In this document: positions 138 to 59,142 of the stretch, in pieces
Numbering within the stretch: position 1 is the stretch's first letter
Layout: each line of letters begins with the position of its first letter
Virus record (IMG/VR): IMGVR_UViG_3300031951_000074
Location: 27,615 to 91,614 of that record
Length of the DNA: 64,000 bases
Strand: one strand, 5' to 3'
DNA from: a virus
Notes under the pieces: model-generated
What the model was told of the DNA's origin: nothing
Databases searched by the model: none
What the model saw: only the letters and a program-made list of their open reading frames with translations
Program-made: the position numbers and the translations under genes

Positions 138-3100
138 ATGATACCTATTATTCTAAAAAAATCTAATGTACCATCAAAAGCCCCAACCACAGCAGATTTG
201 GACTGGGGCGAACTTGCTGTAAACTATACAGATGGTAAGTTGTATTATAAAAAACAAAGCGACAACGATCCAACTGGAACAATAGATTATTTTACCTCTT
301 CTACGGCTGCAACCGGAGTAAATAATGGAGCTTTAACTCTTGCATCTGCCTCTGGAACTACAAACACAGCCGTAACAATAAATAACGGTACGGGTTTCAC
401 AGCAAATTCTAGTCAGAACATACAGTACACAATAGCAGTAGGTCCAGCACTTACTGCTTTGTCTACTGTTATGTCGCCAAACAATACAGGCTTACTTAAA
501 AAAACCGGCACAGATACTTACACTCTTGATACTACCAACTACTTAACATCTGCTGTTACCAGTGTTAGTGGTACAGGAACAGTCGCCGGCTTGTCACTGA
601 GTGGAACTGTGACTTCTACAGGAAACCTAACACTGTCCGGTACGTTGAGTGCTCCAGTGACTAGTATCAATGACAGTACTGTGGTAGGTAGAAACTTAGT
701 AAAGCTAGCAGATCCAAATAATATTACATTTTTAAGAGTTAACGCAGACAATACAGTCAGTGCTTTAAATGCAGCTGACTTTAGAACTGCAATTGGTGCT
801 GGTACGGGCGGAGGCGGTACCGGCACTGTTACCAGTGTTAGTGGCACAGGAACAGTAGCCGGCTTGTCATTGAGCGGAACAGTCACTACTACAGGAAACT
901 TGAGTTTGAGTGGTACTTTGAGTGCTCCAGTGAGCAGCATCAACGACAGTACGACAGTTGGTAGAAACTTAGTAAAACTAACAGATCCAGGCAGCATCAC
1001 CTTTTTAAGAGTTAATGCAGACAACACAGTCAGTGCTCTTAACGCAACTGACTTTAGAACTGCAATTGGGGCCGGTACGGGCGGAGGTACTGGCACTGTT
1101 ACCAGTGTTAGTGGTACAGGAACGGTGGCTGGTTTGTCTCTCACTGGAACAGTCACTACTACAGGAAACTTGAGTTTGAGTGGTACTTTGAGTGCTCCAG
1201 TGAGCAGCATCAACGACAGTACGACAGTTGGTAGAAACTTAGTAAAGCTAGCAGATCCAGGTGCTGTTACATTTTTAAGAGTTAATGCAGACAACACAGT
1301 CAGTGCGTTGAATGCAACTGACTTTAGAACTGCAATTGGGGCAGGTACTGGAGGCGGTGGAGTTATTCAAGTAACTGCTTCTGCCCCAATATCCAGCACA
1401 GGTGGTAGTACTCCAACAATATCTATAGATCCAGCTACAACTTCTGCTGCAGGCAGCATGAGTGCAGCAGATAAAGCTAAACTAAATGGCATTGAAGCAG
1501 GTGCTCAGGTTAATTTACCAACAAATTTAGGTATAGGTGAACGTACCGGTTTAACTGCAGCTATTACAAGTTCTACTGGTACAAGTGCAATTTTATTTAA
1601 TGCTACAGATACTTTAGCAGGCTTAATGAGTGCAGGAGACAAAATTAAACTAAATGGTATTCCAGCAGGAGGTAATGCAGCTACAAATTTAGGTATAGGT
1701 GAACGTACCGGTTTAACTGTAGCTATTACAAGTTCTACTGGTACAAGTGCAATTTTATTTAATGCTACAGATACTTTAGCAGGCTTAATGAGTGCAGCAG
1801 ATAAAGCTAAACTAAATGGTATTCAAGCAGGAGCAACAGCCAATACAGGAACTGTTGACAGCGTAGCCGGTAAGACAGGCGTAGTTACATTGACCAAAAC
1901 CGATGTTGGGTTAGGTAACGTAGATAATACGTCTGATGCAGACAAGCCAGTAAGTACAGCACAACAAGCTGCTTTAAATCTAAAAGCTAACATTGATTCT
2001 CCAAACTTTACAGGATCTGTAAAAGAAAATAATAATCAAGTATTGCATGCTGGTAACTACAGTGGATACTCGCCAACACTAACCGGAGGTGGAGCAAGTG
2101 GCTCTTGGAGTATTTCTGTTACTGGAAACGCAAGCACTGCTACAACATTGCAAACATCTCGTACAATCAATGGTGTTGCTTTTAACGGTTCTCAAAACAT
2201 TGTTGTTCAAGACAGTACAAAACTTCCACTAACTGGTGGTACATTAACAGGATCTGTAACTTTAAATGGTGGAAGTATTGGGATCGATGTTGCCCCAACA
2301 GATCCGGCCGTTTCAGGCAGATCAATACAAATAGTTAATGGCGGTGGTTTGTTGTGGGCAACAACTGGGAGTTTTGTAGTTGCAAACAATATTACAATAG
2401 ATTCTTCTGGTAATGGTGTTTATCAATTAGCTACTGCTGCTTCTTCGTACTCACAAACTGCTGGCACTCATAGATGGTATACTGCAGCTGGTGGTACAGC
2501 GGGATCTGTGGCTAATATGGTAGAAGGTCTGAGTTTGAATTCAACAGCTCTAGACTCTAAGGTTGCCATCAAAGAAAATAACAACCAAGTATTACATGCT
2601 GGCAACTATAGCAATTATGCAATACCAGCTGTAGCACCTGGCACAAGCGGCAATGTGTTAACTTCCAACGGGTCTAGTTGGACTAGTCAAGCACCATCAG
2701 GAGGTGCTGGAAACTCAGTTAACATACAAGAGTTCTCCACAGTAGGTACTTCTACTTGGACCAAACCAGCAGGTGCCAAGTTAATACATATTATTTTACA
2801 AGCCGGAGGTGGTGGGGGTGGATCGGGACGTGTTCGAGCTTCAGCAAGTTTTAGTACAGAAACTGCTGGAGGAGGCGGCGGAGGTGGTGGAGGCGGTAGA
2901 ACAGAGTTCTTTTTTCCAGCCAGTCTTTTTGCAAATACAGAAAATGTGGAAGTGGGTGCTGGTGGAAGTGGTGCAGCATCACAAACATCAATAACAAGTG
3001 GTAATGCTGGAAGTACGGGTGGCAATTCAACATTTGGAACCACAGTTCGCGCCAGAGCTCGCGGAGGCGTGGGCGGAAACGGAGGCTCGGCAGGTGCTGC

Positions 3101-10458: not shown

Positions 10459-12357
10459 ATGGCTTTTAAAATTAAAGACGGTGTTAGAATAGGCACCACG
10501 GACATATTTGATAATGCTGGAACGTTACTAGTTAACGCACCAACTGCAACCAAGTGGCTCAACGCAAGAACCATCACTCTTGGTGGTGATCTGAGCGGTA
10601 GCGTGTCCGTAGACGGGTCACAAAACGTTACACTAACTGCAACTATTGCTGCAGACTCTGTTGCTTTAGGCACAGATACAACAGGTAATTACGTAAGTCT
10701 GGTACAAAGCAGTGGAACTGGTATTGTTGTTAGTGGAACCGCTGGAGAAAATGCAACATTTTCAGTTGCCCACGCAGACACCTCAACACAAGCTACTGTA
10801 ACCAACAGTGGCAGAACATACCTTCAAAGCATTACACTAGATGATTTTGGACACATTACTGCAGTAACTAGTGCAACAGAGCCAACAGAAGGCAGTGGTA
10901 CTCTTACCCTAAACATAGGCAGTGCTGGAGCAACTGGTAGTTCTGTAACAATTGCTACAGGTACTGGATTTAATGCTAACAGCAGCTCAAACGTTACATA
11001 CAGTGTAAGCGTTGGTCCAGCCCTGAGCGGATTAGCCACAACAATGACAGGTGCTGGGTCAGGCTTCTTGAAAAAGACCGCGGCCGATACTTATACAATC
11101 GACACAAACACGTACTTAACGGCCGAATCAGACACGTTGGCCACAGTAACAGGACGTGGGGCAACAACAAGTACTGCATTGAGCTTAACCAACTCAACAG
11201 CAAGCTCTAATACAACCACTGGTGCTCTAGTAGTAACTGGCGGTGTTGGTATTGGCGGTGCTTTAAACGTTGGCGGAAACACAGGAGTTACCGGCAACTT
11301 AACCATCACCGGCAACTTGATTGTAAATGGCACAACCACAACAGTCAATTCAACCACAACAACCTTAGACGATCCCATTATTACTCTGGGTGGCGATAGT
11401 GCTCCTGGTACTGACGACAACAAAGATCGTGGTGTTGAGTTCCGTTGGCACAATGGTACCTCCGCTAAAATCGGTTTCTTTGGGTACGACGACAGCACAG
11501 GCAAGTTTACCTTTATTCCAGATGCTACAAACTCTTCAGAAGTGTTCTCTGGCACTACTGGAGAAATTGATGCAAAGATTGATTGGAGTAACATTCTTAA
11601 TACTCCAGCCGCAGCAACAGTAAATAACGGTACATTAACATTAACAGCATCAGCTGGTGCAACAAACACTTCAGTTACTATTGGTACAGGTACTGGCTTT
11701 AGTGCAAACGATTCAAACAACGAAACTTATGACATTGATGTAGGCCCTGCATTAAGCAACTTGGCTACAACAATGACTGGTGCTGGTAGTGGTTTTTTAA
11801 AGAAAACAGCACAAGACACTTATACTGTTGATACAAACACATACTTAACGACCGAGTCCGACACATTATCTAGTGTAACAGCCCGGGGAAATACTACTAC
11901 TGATATCATCATCGCTGCAAATACTACACAAAGTACCAGCTCTCTTACAGGTGCTATTGTAGTAGGCGGTGGTTTGGGTGTTGCAAAGAACATTACAACA
12001 AAAGCATCGGTTGTATATAACAATTCAAGTGACGCAAAAATCAGTGAAGATTCTGGTCTATCAGCAACAGTAGCAACCACAACTACTACAGATTTGGATA
12101 CTTGGGCAGTTGCAACTTATCGCAGTGCACGTTACTTGGTACAGATCACACAAGGATCAAACTATCAAGTTAGCGAAGTATTGGTATTACACAACGGTAC
12201 TACTACAACAATGACTGAATATGCTGTATTGGAAAGCAACGGTGCCTTGGGTACATTGACCAGCGACATAAATGCAGGTAATGCCCGCCTACGAGTTACG
12301 ATGGGCACCTCAACTTCTGCTACTGTCAAGATTCATCGCACTCTGGTAACAGTATAA
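10459..12357 (+). CDS. Tail fibre protein with duplicated modules
   Basis: 632 residues beginning MAFKIKDGVRIGTTDIFDNAG. There are two long internal repeats (LSNLATTMTGAGSGFLKKTA and its copy LSGLATTMTGAGSGFLKKTA, about 240 residues apart), each followed by YT(I/V)DTNTYLT. Between them lies VTGGVGIGGALNVGGNT with a TTTTLDDPIITLGGD strand block common in fibres of marine and freshwater myophages. The C-terminal about 110 residues form a compact domain (ISEDSGLSATVATTTTTDLD) ending RTLVTV. AGGAG precedes the ATG. Confidence 0.82.
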   Translation: MAFKIKDGVRIGTTDIFDNAGTLLVNAPTATKWLNARTITLGGDLSGSVSVDGSQNVTLTATIAADSVALGTDTTGNYVSLVQSSGTGIVVSGTAGENATFSVAHADTSTQATVTNSGRTYLQSITLDDFGHITAVTSATEPTEGSGTLTLNIGSAGATGSSVTIATGTGFNANSSSNVTYSVSVGPALSGLATTMTGAGSGFLKKTAADTYTIDTNTYLTAESDTLATVTGRGATTSTALSLTNSTASSNTTTGALVVTGGVGIGGALNVGGNTGVTGNLTITGNLIVNGTTTTVNSTTTTLDDPIITLGGDSAPGTDDNKDRGVEFRWHNGTSAKIGFFGYDDSTGKFTFIPDATNSSEVFSGTTGEIDAKIDWSNILNTPAAATVNNGTLTLTASAGATNTSVTIGTGTGFSANDSNNETYDIDVGPALSNLATTMTGAGSGFLKKTAQDTYTVDTNTYLTTESDTLSSVTARGNTTTDIIIAANTTQSTSSLTGAIVVGGGLGVAKNITTKASVVYNNSSDAKISEDSGLSATVATTTTTDLDTWAVATYRSARYLVQITQGSNYQVSEVLVLHNGTTTTMTEYAVLESNGALGTLTSDINAGNARLRVTMGTSTSATVKIHRTLVTV

Positions 12358-43106: not shown

Positions 43107-43862
43107 TTAGATTTCTTTCTTTAAAAATTTGTCGAGGTTACTGATGATTGTTATGCCATAACTGTCTGCTTTTTGTCTTTTTGTGCTGTTATCGTTTGCT
43201 TCGTCTACCAAATAGTCAAGCGACTTTGTGACAGACTCTACTACTTTATAACCGCCTTCTTCTAGAGCTTTTTGTGCTAGTGCTTTTGTTTTGAAGGTTT
43301 TTAGCTTGCCAGTGATGCATACTGTGGCCAAATATTCTTTGGCCTGTTGCTTTGATGCAGAAGTCCAGGAAAATGGCAAAAATTCCTGAAGCTCTGCTAG
43401 TTCTGAGTTGATCCAAGCCATAAGGTTTTGTGTGGCCTTATCGCCTAGTCCAGCTTCTTTACATTTGGTTTCGGTTATCTCACTTACATGATTTACTACA
43501 CCTGAAATCTTCTCACTTGCCGTAGACCCGATAAGTGGAATAGAAAAGCTCTGTAGCACTACGCTGAGCTTTGCAGACTTTGACAATTCTATTTCTTGAA
43601 AGAGTTTTTCTGCAAGTCTTGCACTGCCAAGAGCAATTTCTACTTCTTTTTGATCTAGAAAGTAAATTTCGGTGATATCGTTGAGTGATAGTTTTTCAAG
43701 TGTTTTTGGGCCCATGCCCTTAATACCAATTGTTTTACAAAAATGTTCAATCTTTTTGAACACTTGAGCATCGCACAGGGGGTTGCGGCAAAACAATTGT
43801 TCATTGATTGTTTCAAGGGTATAGTTGCAGCAGGGGCAATTATTTGGTATGGTAATTTGCAT
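43107..43862 (-). CDS. NAD-dependent DNA ligase, C-terminal subunit
   Basis: 251 residues. Starts with a zinc finger (CPCC ... CRNPLC), then helix-hairpin-helix repeats (GIKGMGPKTLEKL, then LIGSTASEKIS) and a C-terminal BRCT domain (ATVCITGKLKTFKTKALAQK). These are the last three domains of bacterial LigA, encoded separately from the adenylation half at 45248. Two-gene NAD ligases are known in T5-like phages. Together the two chains (251 + 315) are close to a LigA of reduced length. Confidence 0.88.
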   Translation of the reverse strand: MQITIPNNCPCCNYTLETINEQLFCRNPLCDAQVFKKIEHFCKTIGIKGMGPKTLEKLSLNDITEIYFLDQKEVEIALGSARLAEKLFQEIELSKSAKLSVVLQSFSIPLIGSTASEKISGVVNHVSEITETKCKEAGLGDKATQNLMAWINSELAELQEFLPFSWTSASKQQAKEYLATVCITGKLKTFKTKALAQKALEEGGYKVVESVTKSLDYLVDEANDNSTKRQKADSYGITIISNLDKFLKKEI

Positions 43863-45100: not shown

Positions 45101-45251
45101 GTTTATTTAGTTTGTATTGTAGACGTGCTGCTATAGCTGCCCACATTGCTACGCTTAGTTGTGATGTCGCCAAAGCCCAATGTTGGTCGGCAAGCGACAT
45201 TCCGCACAACACCAAGTTCAAAGCACATATTGCTAGTGATAATACTATCAT
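45090..45251 (-). CDS. Small membrane protein
   Basis: 53 residues (MIVLSLAICALNLVLCGMSL, then LATSQLSVAMWAAIAARLQY), with two hydrophobic stretches. ATG at 45251 forms an ATGA overlap with the ligase N-terminal stop at 45248. The stop at 45090 overlaps the next start. Function unknown. Confidence 0.6.
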   Translation of the reverse strand: MIVLSLAICALNLVLCGMSLADQHWALATSQLSVAMWAAIAARLQYKLNKHEQ

Positions 45252-46195
45252 ACTTTGTACACAATCTCAGGAATGATTTCGCCTGCTCGACGAATGCCTA
45301 CTACATCACCAATACACAACTCCAGTGCTTTGATAAAGCCAGGATTGTTCAACGTGGCTCGGCTCACTGTTGCATCGCCTACCATAACGGGTTCCAAGAT
45401 GGCTACAGGAGTTACTTTGCCTGTCTTGCCAACTTGCCATTCCACGTCCAGCAACACAGTCTCAACACACTCCTGACGAGTCTTCAACGCATAAGCACCA
45501 CGAGGATGCTTGCTGGTGTGCCCCAGTTCATCAAAGCGTTCATTGTTGTCTACACGAAATACCAAACCATCAGTGGGATAGATCTTTTCCAGGTGGTTAT
45601 CAAACACAGTAGAAAAGCCCACTGCACTCAGTGTGTTCATGTCTTGAGTGAAGGTTTCGGTTAGATATGGATACACACCATATGCAAAAAACTCAACACT
45701 GCGAGTTTTCCACTCTGACAAGTCACTCAAGTTCAAGCTGCCTGCTGCATAGTTGCGAGCATTCTCAATGTGACTCGGAGCACACACTTCTCCAGTGATC
45801 TGAACTGTGTGACCCCAGAAGTCTGGAATCTTGACAGGAACCAGACGAGCTACCTTGTCTGTTACATCACGACCGTTCACACCATCGCCTCGGGTGAGTG
45901 CACGAACAAAATTGCCGTTTACGTATAGCACACTGATTGCTGCACCATCCAGCTTTACAGTGACTGCAATGTTCTTTTCGTTGTGCAGTGGGCTGGGCTT
46001 GTTTGAGTCTTCGTAGTGCTTTTGAAGACTGTACATTTGATACATATGGGCTTGTGAGTCACCCCACTCACTGCTACCTACTTTGTTGTAGTTTGAGATA
46101 GCCGCCAGTCGATCAAACTGTTCGTCAGAGATGATGGGCACACCGTTGTAATATTGACGGCTGCACTCGTCTAGATAGTTGTGTAGTGTTTTCAT
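45248..46195 (-). CDS. NAD-dependent DNA ligase, N-terminal (adenylation) subunit
   Basis: 315 residues. YYNGVPIISDEQFDRL matches the NAD-binding domain Ia. SLQK then KLDGAA gives the KxDG motif with the adenylated Lys at 81. ALTRGDGVNGRDVT, ITGEVCAP, DGLVFRVDN and an OB-fold segment (VTPVAILEPVMVGDATVSRA) complete it. It forms the enzyme-AMP intermediate and acts with the 43107 product, 1.4 kb away. The ATG follows a -10 box by 7 bases. Confidence 0.9.
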   Translation of the reverse strand: MKTLHNYLDECSRQYYNGVPIISDEQFDRLAAISNYNKVGSSEWGDSQAHMYQMYSLQKHYEDSNKPSPLHNEKNIAVTVKLDGAAISVLYVNGNFVRALTRGDGVNGRDVTDKVARLVPVKIPDFWGHTVQITGEVCAPSHIENARNYAAGSLNLSDLSEWKTRSVEFFAYGVYPYLTETFTQDMNTLSAVGFSTVFDNHLEKIYPTDGLVFRVDNNERFDELGHTSKHPRGAYALKTRQECVETVLLDVEWQVGKTGKVTPVAILEPVMVGDATVSRATLNNPGFIKALELCIGDVVGIRRAGEIIPEIVYKV

Positions 46196-47994: not shown

Positions 47995-48100
47995 GCACGA
48001 CAGCCCATCCTGTTTTCGTCGTGCACTGAGGCGGGTTCGCAATTGCGGGGTGTACAGGCCCGCCCAAGACAGCCACCACGTACATTACTGCAGAGGTGGT
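47995..48100 (-). ncRNA. Structured non-coding stretch between tmRNA and tRNA-Thr
   Basis: Three successive hairpins and no supported gene. GCACGAC/GTCGTGC (47995-48001 with 48018-48024), GGCGGG/CCCGCC (48030-48035 with 48059-48064) whose loop holds the palindrome CGCAATTGCG, and CCACC/GGTGG (48073-48077 with 48095-48099). GC-rich relative to its neighbours. Could be a tRNA remnant, processing signals or an ncRNA. Confidence 0.45.
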
Positions 48101-48189
48101 TGGCATTTTATTAGGGTAGCAAGTGGTACGATAACCGTCGCAAGTGCTTACTCGACGTACATCACATGAGCTACCCTAATAAAATGCCA
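48101..48189 (-). repeat. Perfect 20 bp inverted repeat with structured 49-nt loop
   Basis: TGGCATTTTATTAGGGTAGC (48101-48120) and its exact complement at 48170-48189. Inside the loop GTCG/CGAC and GTAC/GTAC can pair. It lies right after the tmRNA coding piece on the minus strand. No T run follows, so it is not a normal terminator. Confidence 0.85.
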
Positions 48190-48532
48190 CGTGATTTGAT
48201 AACAAGGACACGTGGCGAAAACCCTGGCTCAGCTAGTTTTTCAGGCTGCTAGAGCAAATACCTCATCGTTGGCATTTATTTTTGTTTTGCTGTTTCGGCC
48301 AGGAAACTCCCAACCCTACGGCTTTCGCATTGCCGAGCTGTCCATTTCGTTACTCATTGCCCCGTCGAAACCAGGTCAGGCCCATCAAAAGCATACTAAG
48401 CGCACACGCAAACTCCTACAACTTCCGTCATCTAAGCTTGAGGCCTTAAGGTGTTAAGTATGCTTTTGGTGGACCTGGGCGGAATCGAACCGCCGTCCGG
48501 AACACTTTTCTCTCTACTTCATACAGCCATAT
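48190..48532 (-). ncRNA. ssrA: Circularly permuted (two-piece) tmRNA
   Basis: The order on the minus strand is acceptor half first, coding half second. The acceptor piece (about 48532-48467) has T arm GGCGG-TTCGATT-CCGCC and 3' CAGGTCC-A-CCA. The coding piece starts at 48383 with GGGCCTG, which pairs with CAGGTCC, followed by the tmRNA D-region ACCTGGTTTCGACGGGG. The tag frame (48273-48241) reads ANDEVFALAA then TGA. An 83-nt spacer (48384-48466) contains AAAGCATACTTA/TTAGTATGCTTT, which extends the acceptor helix and would be processed away. Outer limits are approximate: the coding piece probably ends in or after the GCCACGTG/CACGTGGC hairpin near 48190. It would rescue stalled ribosomes and tag the products. 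Confidence 0.92.
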
Positions 48533-48563
48533 TTAATTTTTCAGATATACTCTGAAAAATTAA
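48533..48563 (-). repeat. AT-rich hairpin upstream of tmRNA
   Basis: TTAATTTTTCAG (48533-48544) and CTGAAAAATTAA (48552-48563) form a perfect 12 bp stem with a 7-nt loop. It spans the stop of the gene at 48541 and abuts the tmRNA acceptor piece, so it may be a processing or boundary signal. Confidence 0.65.
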
Positions 48564-48868: not shown

Positions 48869-49135
48869 TCAATATTTTTGTTCTGTGATTAAACTGACAT
48901 ACAAACGATTCTTAAATTTTTCACTCAATTTTGGAATCAACACACTCCAGATCAAGATTGGAGCTAACACAAGCCCGCCGATCAACAACGAAAAGGTGGC
49001 CATTTTCCAGTTTCGTGCCACCATTGTTTCTGGTTCTGTGACGCGAACTTCTTTAATAACTGGCCAAAAAAGCTCGTACATTGCAGACAGTGATGTTGTG
49101 ATACAGAACAAACAGTAATATCCAAACAGTTCCAT
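48869..49135 (-). CDS. Membrane protein
   Basis: 88 residues with two hydrophobic helices (FGYYCLFCITTSLSAMYELF and MATFSLLIGGLVLAPILIWS). It ends inside the promoter for the gene below. Shares its first base with the stop of the gene upstream. Function unknown. Confidence 0.6.
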   Translation of the reverse strand: MELFGYYCLFCITTSLSAMYELFWPVIKEVRVTEPETMVARNWKMATFSLLIGGLVLAPILIWSVLIPKLSEKFKNRLYVSLITEQKY

Positions 49136-51309: not shown

Positions 51310-51388
51310 TGGAGCGGGTAGGGAGAGTCGAACTCCGCGTTCATCAGCTTGGAAGGCTGCTCCTGGCCCCTTCAGGTAGTCTACCCGC
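51310..51388 (-). tRNA. tRNA-Gly(UCC)
   Basis: 79 nt with CCA. Acceptor GCGGGTA/TACCCGC, anticodon arm CAGC-CTTCCAA-GCTG reading TCC. The D arm is enlarged (CCTG-AAGGGGC-CAGG) with extra bases between acceptor and D stem. It starts 1 bp from tRNA-Val. Confidence 0.85.
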
Positions 51389-54263: not shown

Positions 54264-54338
54264 TGGGTTCCCATTACGGACTCGAACCGCAACTCCAAGG
54301 TTTTGGAGACCTGGCGACTACCACTATCTTAATGGGAA
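54264..54338 (-). tRNA. tRNA-Trp(CCA)
   Basis: 75 nt with CCA. Acceptor TTCCCAT/ATGGGAA, anticodon loop CTCCAAA reads CCA, T arm with GTTCGAGTC. Confidence 0.92.
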
Positions 54339-56871: not shown

Positions 56872-56974
56872 TGGTAGGAGAGGTGGGAATCGAACCCACA
56901 TTACTCCGCCTTATCTAGACGGTGCTCTACGAGTTTATAAGGCTCGCCCTTAGGCCAATATTAGCAACTCTCCC
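56872..56974 (-). tRNA. Class II-like tRNA, anticodon uncertain (UAU by best fold)
   Basis: 103 nt with CCA. Acceptor GGGAGAG/CTCTCCT and T arm GTGGG-TTCGATT-CCCAC are solid. The anticodon arm folds as CGAG(C)-CTTATAA-(A)CTCG, with a mismatched 31-39 pair, giving TAT. A long variable arm contains CCGTC-TAGATAA-GGCGG. A long variable arm is expected for Leu, Ser or Tyr, not Ile, so the identity is unclear. Confidence 0.55.
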
Positions 56975-59070: not shown

Positions 59071-59142
59071 TGGTTGCGGTGCCCTGGAGTCGAACCAGGT
59101 TTCTCTGGCTTATGAGGCCAGCGGATTGCCATCTTCCCCGCC
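59071..59142 (-). tRNA. tRNA-Met(CAU), initiator-like
   Basis: About 72 nt with CCA. Anticodon arm CTGGC-CTCATAA-GCCAG reads CAT. The acceptor end CACCGCA-ACCA leaves position 1 unpaired with A72, a mark of initiator tRNAs. The 5' end is slightly uncertain because of the repeat GGCGGGCGGGG. Only 1 bp separates it from the other tRNA-Met. Confidence 0.75.

Follow-up and report, generated by a model that had tools for sequence, protein, structure and literature searches.

Does this virus genome carry a complete tmRNA gene in the two-piece (circularly permuted) form and, if so, was the gene copied recently from a bacterial host or has it long resided in a phage lineage? Two-piece phage tmRNAs are a known kind, since they have already been published. 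A survey by Buchholz et al. (2022, PMC9004378) reports tmRNA in 402 of 18,146 phage genomes, giving 133 unique structures, 53 of them two-piece and 80 one-piece; 50 of the 53 two-piece structures are described as aquatic, and phage tmRNAs as following host lineages, with the exception of phage Melnitz. Other reports give ten phages with tmRNA in 2014 (PMC4131195), 79 phage tmRNA sequences (PMC11915505) and huge phages carrying both tmRNA and SmpB (PMC7162821). Within the open-licence PMC literature, only PMC9004378 was found to treat the one-piece and two-piece forms of phages together, and its text does not mention Stenotrophomonas; the peptide ANDEVFALAA was not found in print in the same literature.

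Genome context

The DNA analysed (the window) is a stretch of 64,000 nt, corresponding to nt 27615-91614 of the 91,614-base IMG/VR virus record IMGVR_UViG_3300031951_000074. The DNA polymerase of the record is about 49% identical to that of phages such as Bf23, a T5 relative, and the record is that of a T5-like phage. PHROG matches include ribonucleotide reductase, DNA polymerase, primase, a DnaB-like helicase, a D5-like regulator, and SbcC- and SbcD-like nuclease parts. The NAD-dependent DNA ligase is present as two half-size reading frames (nt 43107-43862 and 45248-46195, minus strand; PHROGs 3498 and 3359). A near-identity search with 20 kb of the window against phage records returned 40 records, all of which fell short of 80% query coverage. 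Of these, the 20 that were listed matched a tRNA-Thr stretch alone, and no close isolate was found in this way.

ARAGORN places 18 tRNA genes in the region 47.9-61.2 kb, and the tmRNA gene is found close to one end of it. Around the gene are tRNAs and phage genes for ligase, DNA binding and thymidylate synthase, so that it stands as a complete tmRNA among phage genes. Two further tRNA matches (nt 56875-56974 and 59075-59141, minus strand) are given by Rfam but not called by ARAGORN, while tRNA-Gly (51310-51388) and tRNA-Trp (54264-54338) are called by ARAGORN and not listed by Rfam.

Structure of the two-piece tmRNA gene

A complete circularly permuted tmRNA gene with the tag ANDEVFALAA occupies nt 48186-48528 of the minus strand. 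ARAGORN reported a permuted tmRNA (tmRNA*) with this tag at 48150-48559, and the gene matched the Rfam models tmRNA_permuted (RF04321; 131.5 bits, gathering cut-off 47, E 1.7e-25) and beta_tmRNA (RF01850; 114.2 bits, gathering cut-off 84, E 5.4e-34). The alpha tmRNA model gave 38.6 bits, under its cut-off of 50. An earlier sequence-only reading had proposed a two-piece tmRNA with this tag in a phage genome; ARAGORN and Rfam bear it out in position and in all elements, and the covariance-model search on which it had staked the claim returned two significant matches, both above gathering. The features, all on the minus strand, are as follows.

48467-48528, minus: acceptor piece with P2 strand, T arm, acceptor strand and encoded CCA; RNA 5' end approximate (ARAGORN, Rfam, parsing)
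48524-48528, minus: P2, acceptor-piece strand GGCTG (Rfam alignment)
48478-48494, minus: T arm with a 5-bp stem GGCGG/CCGCC and loop TTCGATT (sequence; T-stem pairing across viral genes)
48471-48477, minus: acceptor strand CAGGTCC, with U70 at 48473, followed by A at 48470 and CCA at 48469-48467 (sequence, parsing)
48384-48466, minus: spacer of 83 nt, predicted to be removed; 48466-48457 pair with 48397-48388 at its ends
48387-48384, minus: TGAT, inside the spacer and directly before the coding piece (sequence)
48186-48383, minus: coding piece, 3' end approximate (ARAGORN, Rfam)
48383-48377, minus: coding-piece acceptor strand GGGCCTG, with G3 at 48381 (sequence)
48372-48364, minus: GGTTTCGAC motif in the coding piece (sequence)
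48336-48340, minus: P2, coding-piece strand CAGCT (Rfam alignment, pairing counts)
48241-48273, minus: tag frame ANDEVFALAA and TGA (ARAGORN; same peptide across 121 places)
48186-48216, minus: hairpin GCCACGTG/CACGTGGC with loop CCTTGTTA, near the coding-piece 3' end (beta_tmRNA model alignment)

The acceptor piece is thus encoded upstream of the coding piece, with 83 nt between them. The acceptor strands (48383-48377 and 48477-48471) form 7 of 7 pairs, among them G3-U70 (G48381-U48473), the alanine identity pair, and P2 and the acceptor stem would together hold the two pieces of the RNA to each other. The tag frame (48273-48244) ends at a TGA stop (48243-48241), and the tag has the xAA ending of the ClpX type. 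Directly downstream of the coding piece there is a perfect 19-bp inverted repeat, GGCATTTTATTAGGGTAGC/GCTACCCTAATAAAATGCC (nt 48102-48188, minus strand), with no other good copy of its arm within the window; the stretch 48090-48245 folds far below shuffled sequences (z -5.01, 0 of 200 as low), and the repeat is possibly a 3' processing or termination element.

The sequence-only reading had also paired AAAGCATACTTA with TTAGTATGCTTT across the spacer. This pairing is real except at one position, a T-T mismatch: the spacer ends form 10 contiguous pairs, then the mismatch, then one further pair. Among 211 parsed viral genes of the two-piece form, 86% have at least 8 contiguous pairs at the spacer ends, compared with 2.8% of shuffled spacers, which makes the spacer helix a general feature. 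Of 217 parsed viral genes, 164 have TGAT immediately 5' of the coding piece, and it also stands at the spacer end in three Cupriavidus genes. The helix would extend the acceptor helix through CCA and so present the RNase P site. A fold of the window's precursor stretch (48360-48530) contains the extended acceptor helix, with a z of -1.96 and 7 of 200 shuffles as low; it is just moderately better than shuffles, which counts against the explanation preferred below.

The tag peptide in viruses and bacteria

A search for the tag in any spelling matched at least 119 viral stretches. A scan for the exact ten-residue tag in bacteria and archaea, with one genome for each of 84,980 species, contigs no shorter than 3 kb and no positive control, gave a single stretch, on contig L128 of a Flavobacteriales metagenome bin. 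This contig is 66-89% identical in DNA to a viral contig, and is probably viral sequence within the bin; its recovery indicates that the scan pattern works. The same bin has permuted tmRNAs above the cut-off on three contigs, L128 and two others.

Among the 120 tag loci listed, 95 received an ARAGORN call, in every case permuted, with 91 ending in ANDEVFALAA and four having another tag there. An Rfam tmRNA match was found for 22 of the other 25, and the three without one (L048, L068 and L090) lie so close to a contig end that just 34-69 nt remain upstream of the tag. Counting the window, 121 places carry the tag, in 54 spellings. A stop codon, of which the search pattern had fixed just the T, follows at every one of them, so that it is the peptide that is kept. 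In a number of genes the tag is longer (ANAANDEVFALAA in 25 of them) and still contains AANDEVFALAA, which is the product of the short tag after the charged alanine.

Viral relatives

Viral relatives were gathered with four patterns: the tag, the tmRNA core, a relaxed form of the tag, and the two-piece geometry with no tag required; the samples are non-random and their counts are lower bounds. In the core-pattern sample of 118 loci, ARAGORN made 38 one-piece and 20 two-piece calls and left 61 loci without a call. The statement of the sequence-only reading that phage tmRNAs are mostly one-piece holds as a bare majority, here and in the published 80 of 133 structures (Buchholz 2022), but it understates how frequent the two-piece form is and that this form had been published before. 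The geometry sample (at least 114 new loci) gave 110 permuted calls, one one-piece call and four loci without a call; the 110 calls carry 76 different tags, 103 of them ending in AA. The commonest tag in this tag-independent sample is ANDEKFALAA (11/110), which also occurs on Cupriavidus plasmids, so that viral tags overall are not all virus-only. It is one residue apart from ANDEVFALAA, and this closeness counts against the explanation preferred below.

Over all samples, 217 of 284 permuted calls could be parsed into their elements; the 67 unparsed calls include many ANDEVFALAA genes, cyanobacterial-type tags, and phages BUCT-ZZ01 and Mosig. A 7-bp acceptor stem is present in 217/217 parsed genes, a result that is partly built in because the parser accepted no fewer than 6 of 7 acceptor pairs and demanded an initial GG. 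The parser did not require G3-U70, the T stem or P2. G3-U70 was found in all 217 parsed genes, and across 189 distinct viral sequences pairing holds in 945 of 945 T-stem cells (78.5% with shuffled partners) and in 893 of 940 P2 cells (76.1% with shuffled partners). One viral contig (L072) has a second, partial permuted tmRNA match of 62 bits (nt 11760-11903, minus strand) beside the full one.

Carriers of the tag were surveyed in 40 hand-chosen records of the at least 119. The DNA polymerase type of the window occurs in five of the 40 (68-72% identity) and a T4-type capsid protein in 12; none has both markers, and 23, many of them fragments, have neither. An SmpB gene was found neither in the window's record nor in any of 40 other tag-bearing records, so that SmpB is presumed to come from the host; since many of the records are fragments, the missing gene is no proof of absence. 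SspB was found in none of 23 records, the window's included.

Single-linkage gene sharing was uninformative, putting nearly all loci into one group; another grouping and the marker searches took its place. Among the tag loci listed, homologues of the window tmRNA's neighbours were found in, for instance, 24/119 (reading frame at 49135) and 22/119 (reading frame at 48541); in the 30 loci listed for orientation, they run in the direction of the tmRNA. Two loci (L029 and L061) have the window's pair of genes on either side of the tmRNA, and at most others the tmRNA is about 1.5-4.8 kb upstream of the gene block. The flanking-block proteins of the T5-like relatives are 29-68% identical to those of the window.

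In a tree of the tmRNA sequences (153 columns, 189 rows), the neighbours of the window gene are viral genes with the tags ANDERFLAAA, ANEERFLAAA and ANDERFALAA. ANDEVFALAA is carried by 47 of the 189 rows and requires 23 changes, at least 10 of them forced by starred branches; with shuffled tags the mean is 42.1, and 0 of 500 shuffles were as low as 23. The idea that the tag marks a single viral clade was rejected, since the tag is clustered but not in one group, and one continuous tag lineage is not supported because the tree splits the ANDEVFALAA rows over many branches, which counts against the explanation preferred below. At 153 columns, recombination, repeated origin and tree error are indistinguishable as causes of this scatter. 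With bacterial rows added, limited to three near-identical Cupriavidus plasmid copies, these form a long branch among the viral rows, next to one long-branched viral row.

Comparison with bacterial genes and cultured phages

The beta model scored 66-161 bits on the window and 39 tag-bearing records, above the alpha score in 40/40; two loci outside those 40 (L081 and L127) are listed as alpha class. Of the at least 114 tag-independent viral genes, 20 were scored, giving 19 beta matches (98-172 bits) and one alpha match. For bacterial comparison, plasmid p2 of Cupriavidus pinatubonensis (NZ_CP080769.1, 689 kb) carries two beta-type two-piece tmRNA genes, at 341467-341826 and 369920-370278, with beta scores of 284 and 289 bits. 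They resemble the window gene in gene order, acceptor strands, the TGAT at the spacer end and a similar tag (ANDEKFALAA), but differ in having a 32-nt instead of an 83-nt spacer and in their scores: with 114 bits, the window gene does not come as close to the beta model as these betaproteobacterial genes, all from one Cupriavidus plasmid.

Nine cultured phages were chosen from database matches: Stenotrophomonas phages Marzo, DLP_6, QDWS359 and BUCTxx99, Xanthomonas phages Rb1 and X1, Pseudomonas phage SM1, Synechococcus phage BUCT-ZZ01 and Pelagibacter phage Mosig. All nine match a two-piece Rfam model and are called permuted by ARAGORN, which for Marzo, Rb1 and SM1 also gives an overlapping one-piece call whose tag is unlikely. 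The beta cut-off is reached by four (SM1, DLP_6, Marzo and BUCT-ZZ01), the alpha cut-off by Mosig, and neither by the remaining four. The nine tags are all different and none is ANDEVFALAA (0/9), which also counts against the preferred explanation. In BUCT-ZZ01 (L251, nt 1858-1933, plus strand) ARAGORN places a tRNA with anticodon cta, named tRNA-Pyl, that would read the amber stop.

Close to the window in score is SM1, a 93 kb Samunavirus of Pseudomonas aeruginosa, whose permuted tmRNA reaches 111.2 bits with the beta model (window, 114.2) but carries the tag ANDTSFDVRLAA and has no annotation in the phage's record. Marzo, like the window, has a gene found to be permuted by both ARAGORN and Rfam (beta, 94.6 bits) within a tRNA cluster; it is a T4-like phage, however, with the tag VAANDDSYTVRIAA. 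Mosig and Melnitz, which infect streamlined marine bacteria (Buchholz et al. 2022, PMC9004378), are likewise carriers of permuted tmRNA, for Mosig also by ARAGORN here. Both differ from the window in being T4-like, Mosig further in its alpha-class RNA (67.6 bits, RF01849) and tag GEDNFALAA, and Melnitz (host OM43) in the reported glutamine riboswitch at its tmRNA gene (PMC9004378); Rfam lists no such riboswitch at the window gene.

Pseudomonas, Xanthomonas and Stenotrophomonas presumably have one-piece tmRNA. None of these genera belongs to the main permuted clades, which are Alphaproteobacteria, Betaproteobacteria and Cyanobacteria (PMC11915505). The Marzo tmRNA was described as similar to the 'Betaproteobacter-class tmRNA of S. 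maltophilia', a wording that speaks against a one-piece form in that species, and in that description it is not termed two-piece (PMC8928761).

Origin and function

The window gene is probably a complete tmRNA of the working two-piece type and a long-standing resident of a T5-like phage lineage, not a recent copy of a host gene. The sequence-only reading had proposed either capture from a host lineage with two-piece tmRNA or replacement of the host's tmRNA during infection. Such a replacement may take place. Several findings would fit recent capture from a betaproteobacterial or similar host, with the tag being the host's own: among the class models the betaproteobacterial one fits best, the Cupriavidus plasmid copies match the window gene at 95% identity over 42 nt around the T arm and acceptor strand, and the nearest viral rows in the tree have ANDERFALAA-like tags, while ANDEKFALAA is shared between viruses and Cupriavidus plasmids. 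Recent capture is nevertheless unlikely, and capture from a present host lineage is not upheld, because the tag is practically absent from the scanned bacteria, its one stretch resembling viral contigs, because the score is far under those of the bacterial copies, and because T5-like relatives with divergent proteins keep the tmRNA near the same gene block.

Other readings give the RNA a different role, or none. A decoy or host-control RNA, which would occupy SmpB or alter host proteolysis without rescuing ribosomes, has a precedent in the tmRNA-domain-only RNA of phage DS6A, reported to inhibit tmRNA in E. coli (PMC11915505, PMC4131195), and the tagging of host proteins by phages is a possibility raised by Buchholz et al. 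(PMC9004378). A pure decoy, however, has no need of a complete tag frame with stop, or of a peptide conserved while its codons change, and we regard this role as very unlikely. It is more improbable still that the gene is a functionless, decaying relic or the remnant of an integration site: mobile elements often integrate at ssrA (PMC9004378, PMC11915505), but all parts of the window gene are intact, its helices and tag are conserved in relatives, and its neighbours are ordinary phage genes.

For the preferred reading, that of a resident, working-type tmRNA, the permuted order, the helices, G3-U70 and the tag frame are seen directly in the sequence, and we infer from expression to benefit the following course. 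The tmRNA would be transcribed with the tRNA region as a single precursor, in which the predicted fold runs the acceptor stem through CCA into the spacer helix. Host RNase P and 3' tRNA-processing enzymes would cut out the spacer, leaving two RNAs joined by the acceptor stem and P2. Charging by the host alanyl-tRNA synthetase, by way of G3-U70, would be followed by entry with host SmpB and EF-Tu into ribosomes stalled on broken mRNA, where (A)ANDEVFALAA would be added and translation stop at the TGA. The ribosome would then be freed and the tagged fragment degraded by host proteases of the ClpXP type. The likely benefit to the phage would be the recycling of ribosomes while host DNA and mRNA are being destroyed.

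New here are the T5-like carrier, a tag that is widespread in viruses and absent from clearly bacterial sequence within the scan, the divergence from bacterial beta genes, the two-piece genes in gammaproteobacterial phages, and the generality of the spacer helix. A broader and rather improbable proposal is that the beta-like two-piece tmRNA is an old viral family with its own tags, present even in phages whose hosts lie outside the two-piece clades, and that the betaproteobacterial clade may itself derive from phages. The bacterial beta group is narrow, since thinning at 88% identity leaves 101 seeds, against 97 for the alphaproteobacterial genes at 57.5% (PMC11915505); a viral origin is conceivable because the viral genes are more varied than this group and still beta-like.

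Overall, two-piece phage tmRNAs look more like a phage-resident class than like followers of host lineages, given the beta-like two-piece RNA in phages of Pseudomonas, Stenotrophomonas and a cyanobacterium, and the same tag peptide, with changing codons, in phages with T4-type and T5-type markers. If this is true, both the gain that phages draw from their own trans-translation and the source of the betaproteobacterial two-piece lineage become testable, and the cultured phages SM1, Marzo, DLP_6 and Rb1 offer laboratory systems.
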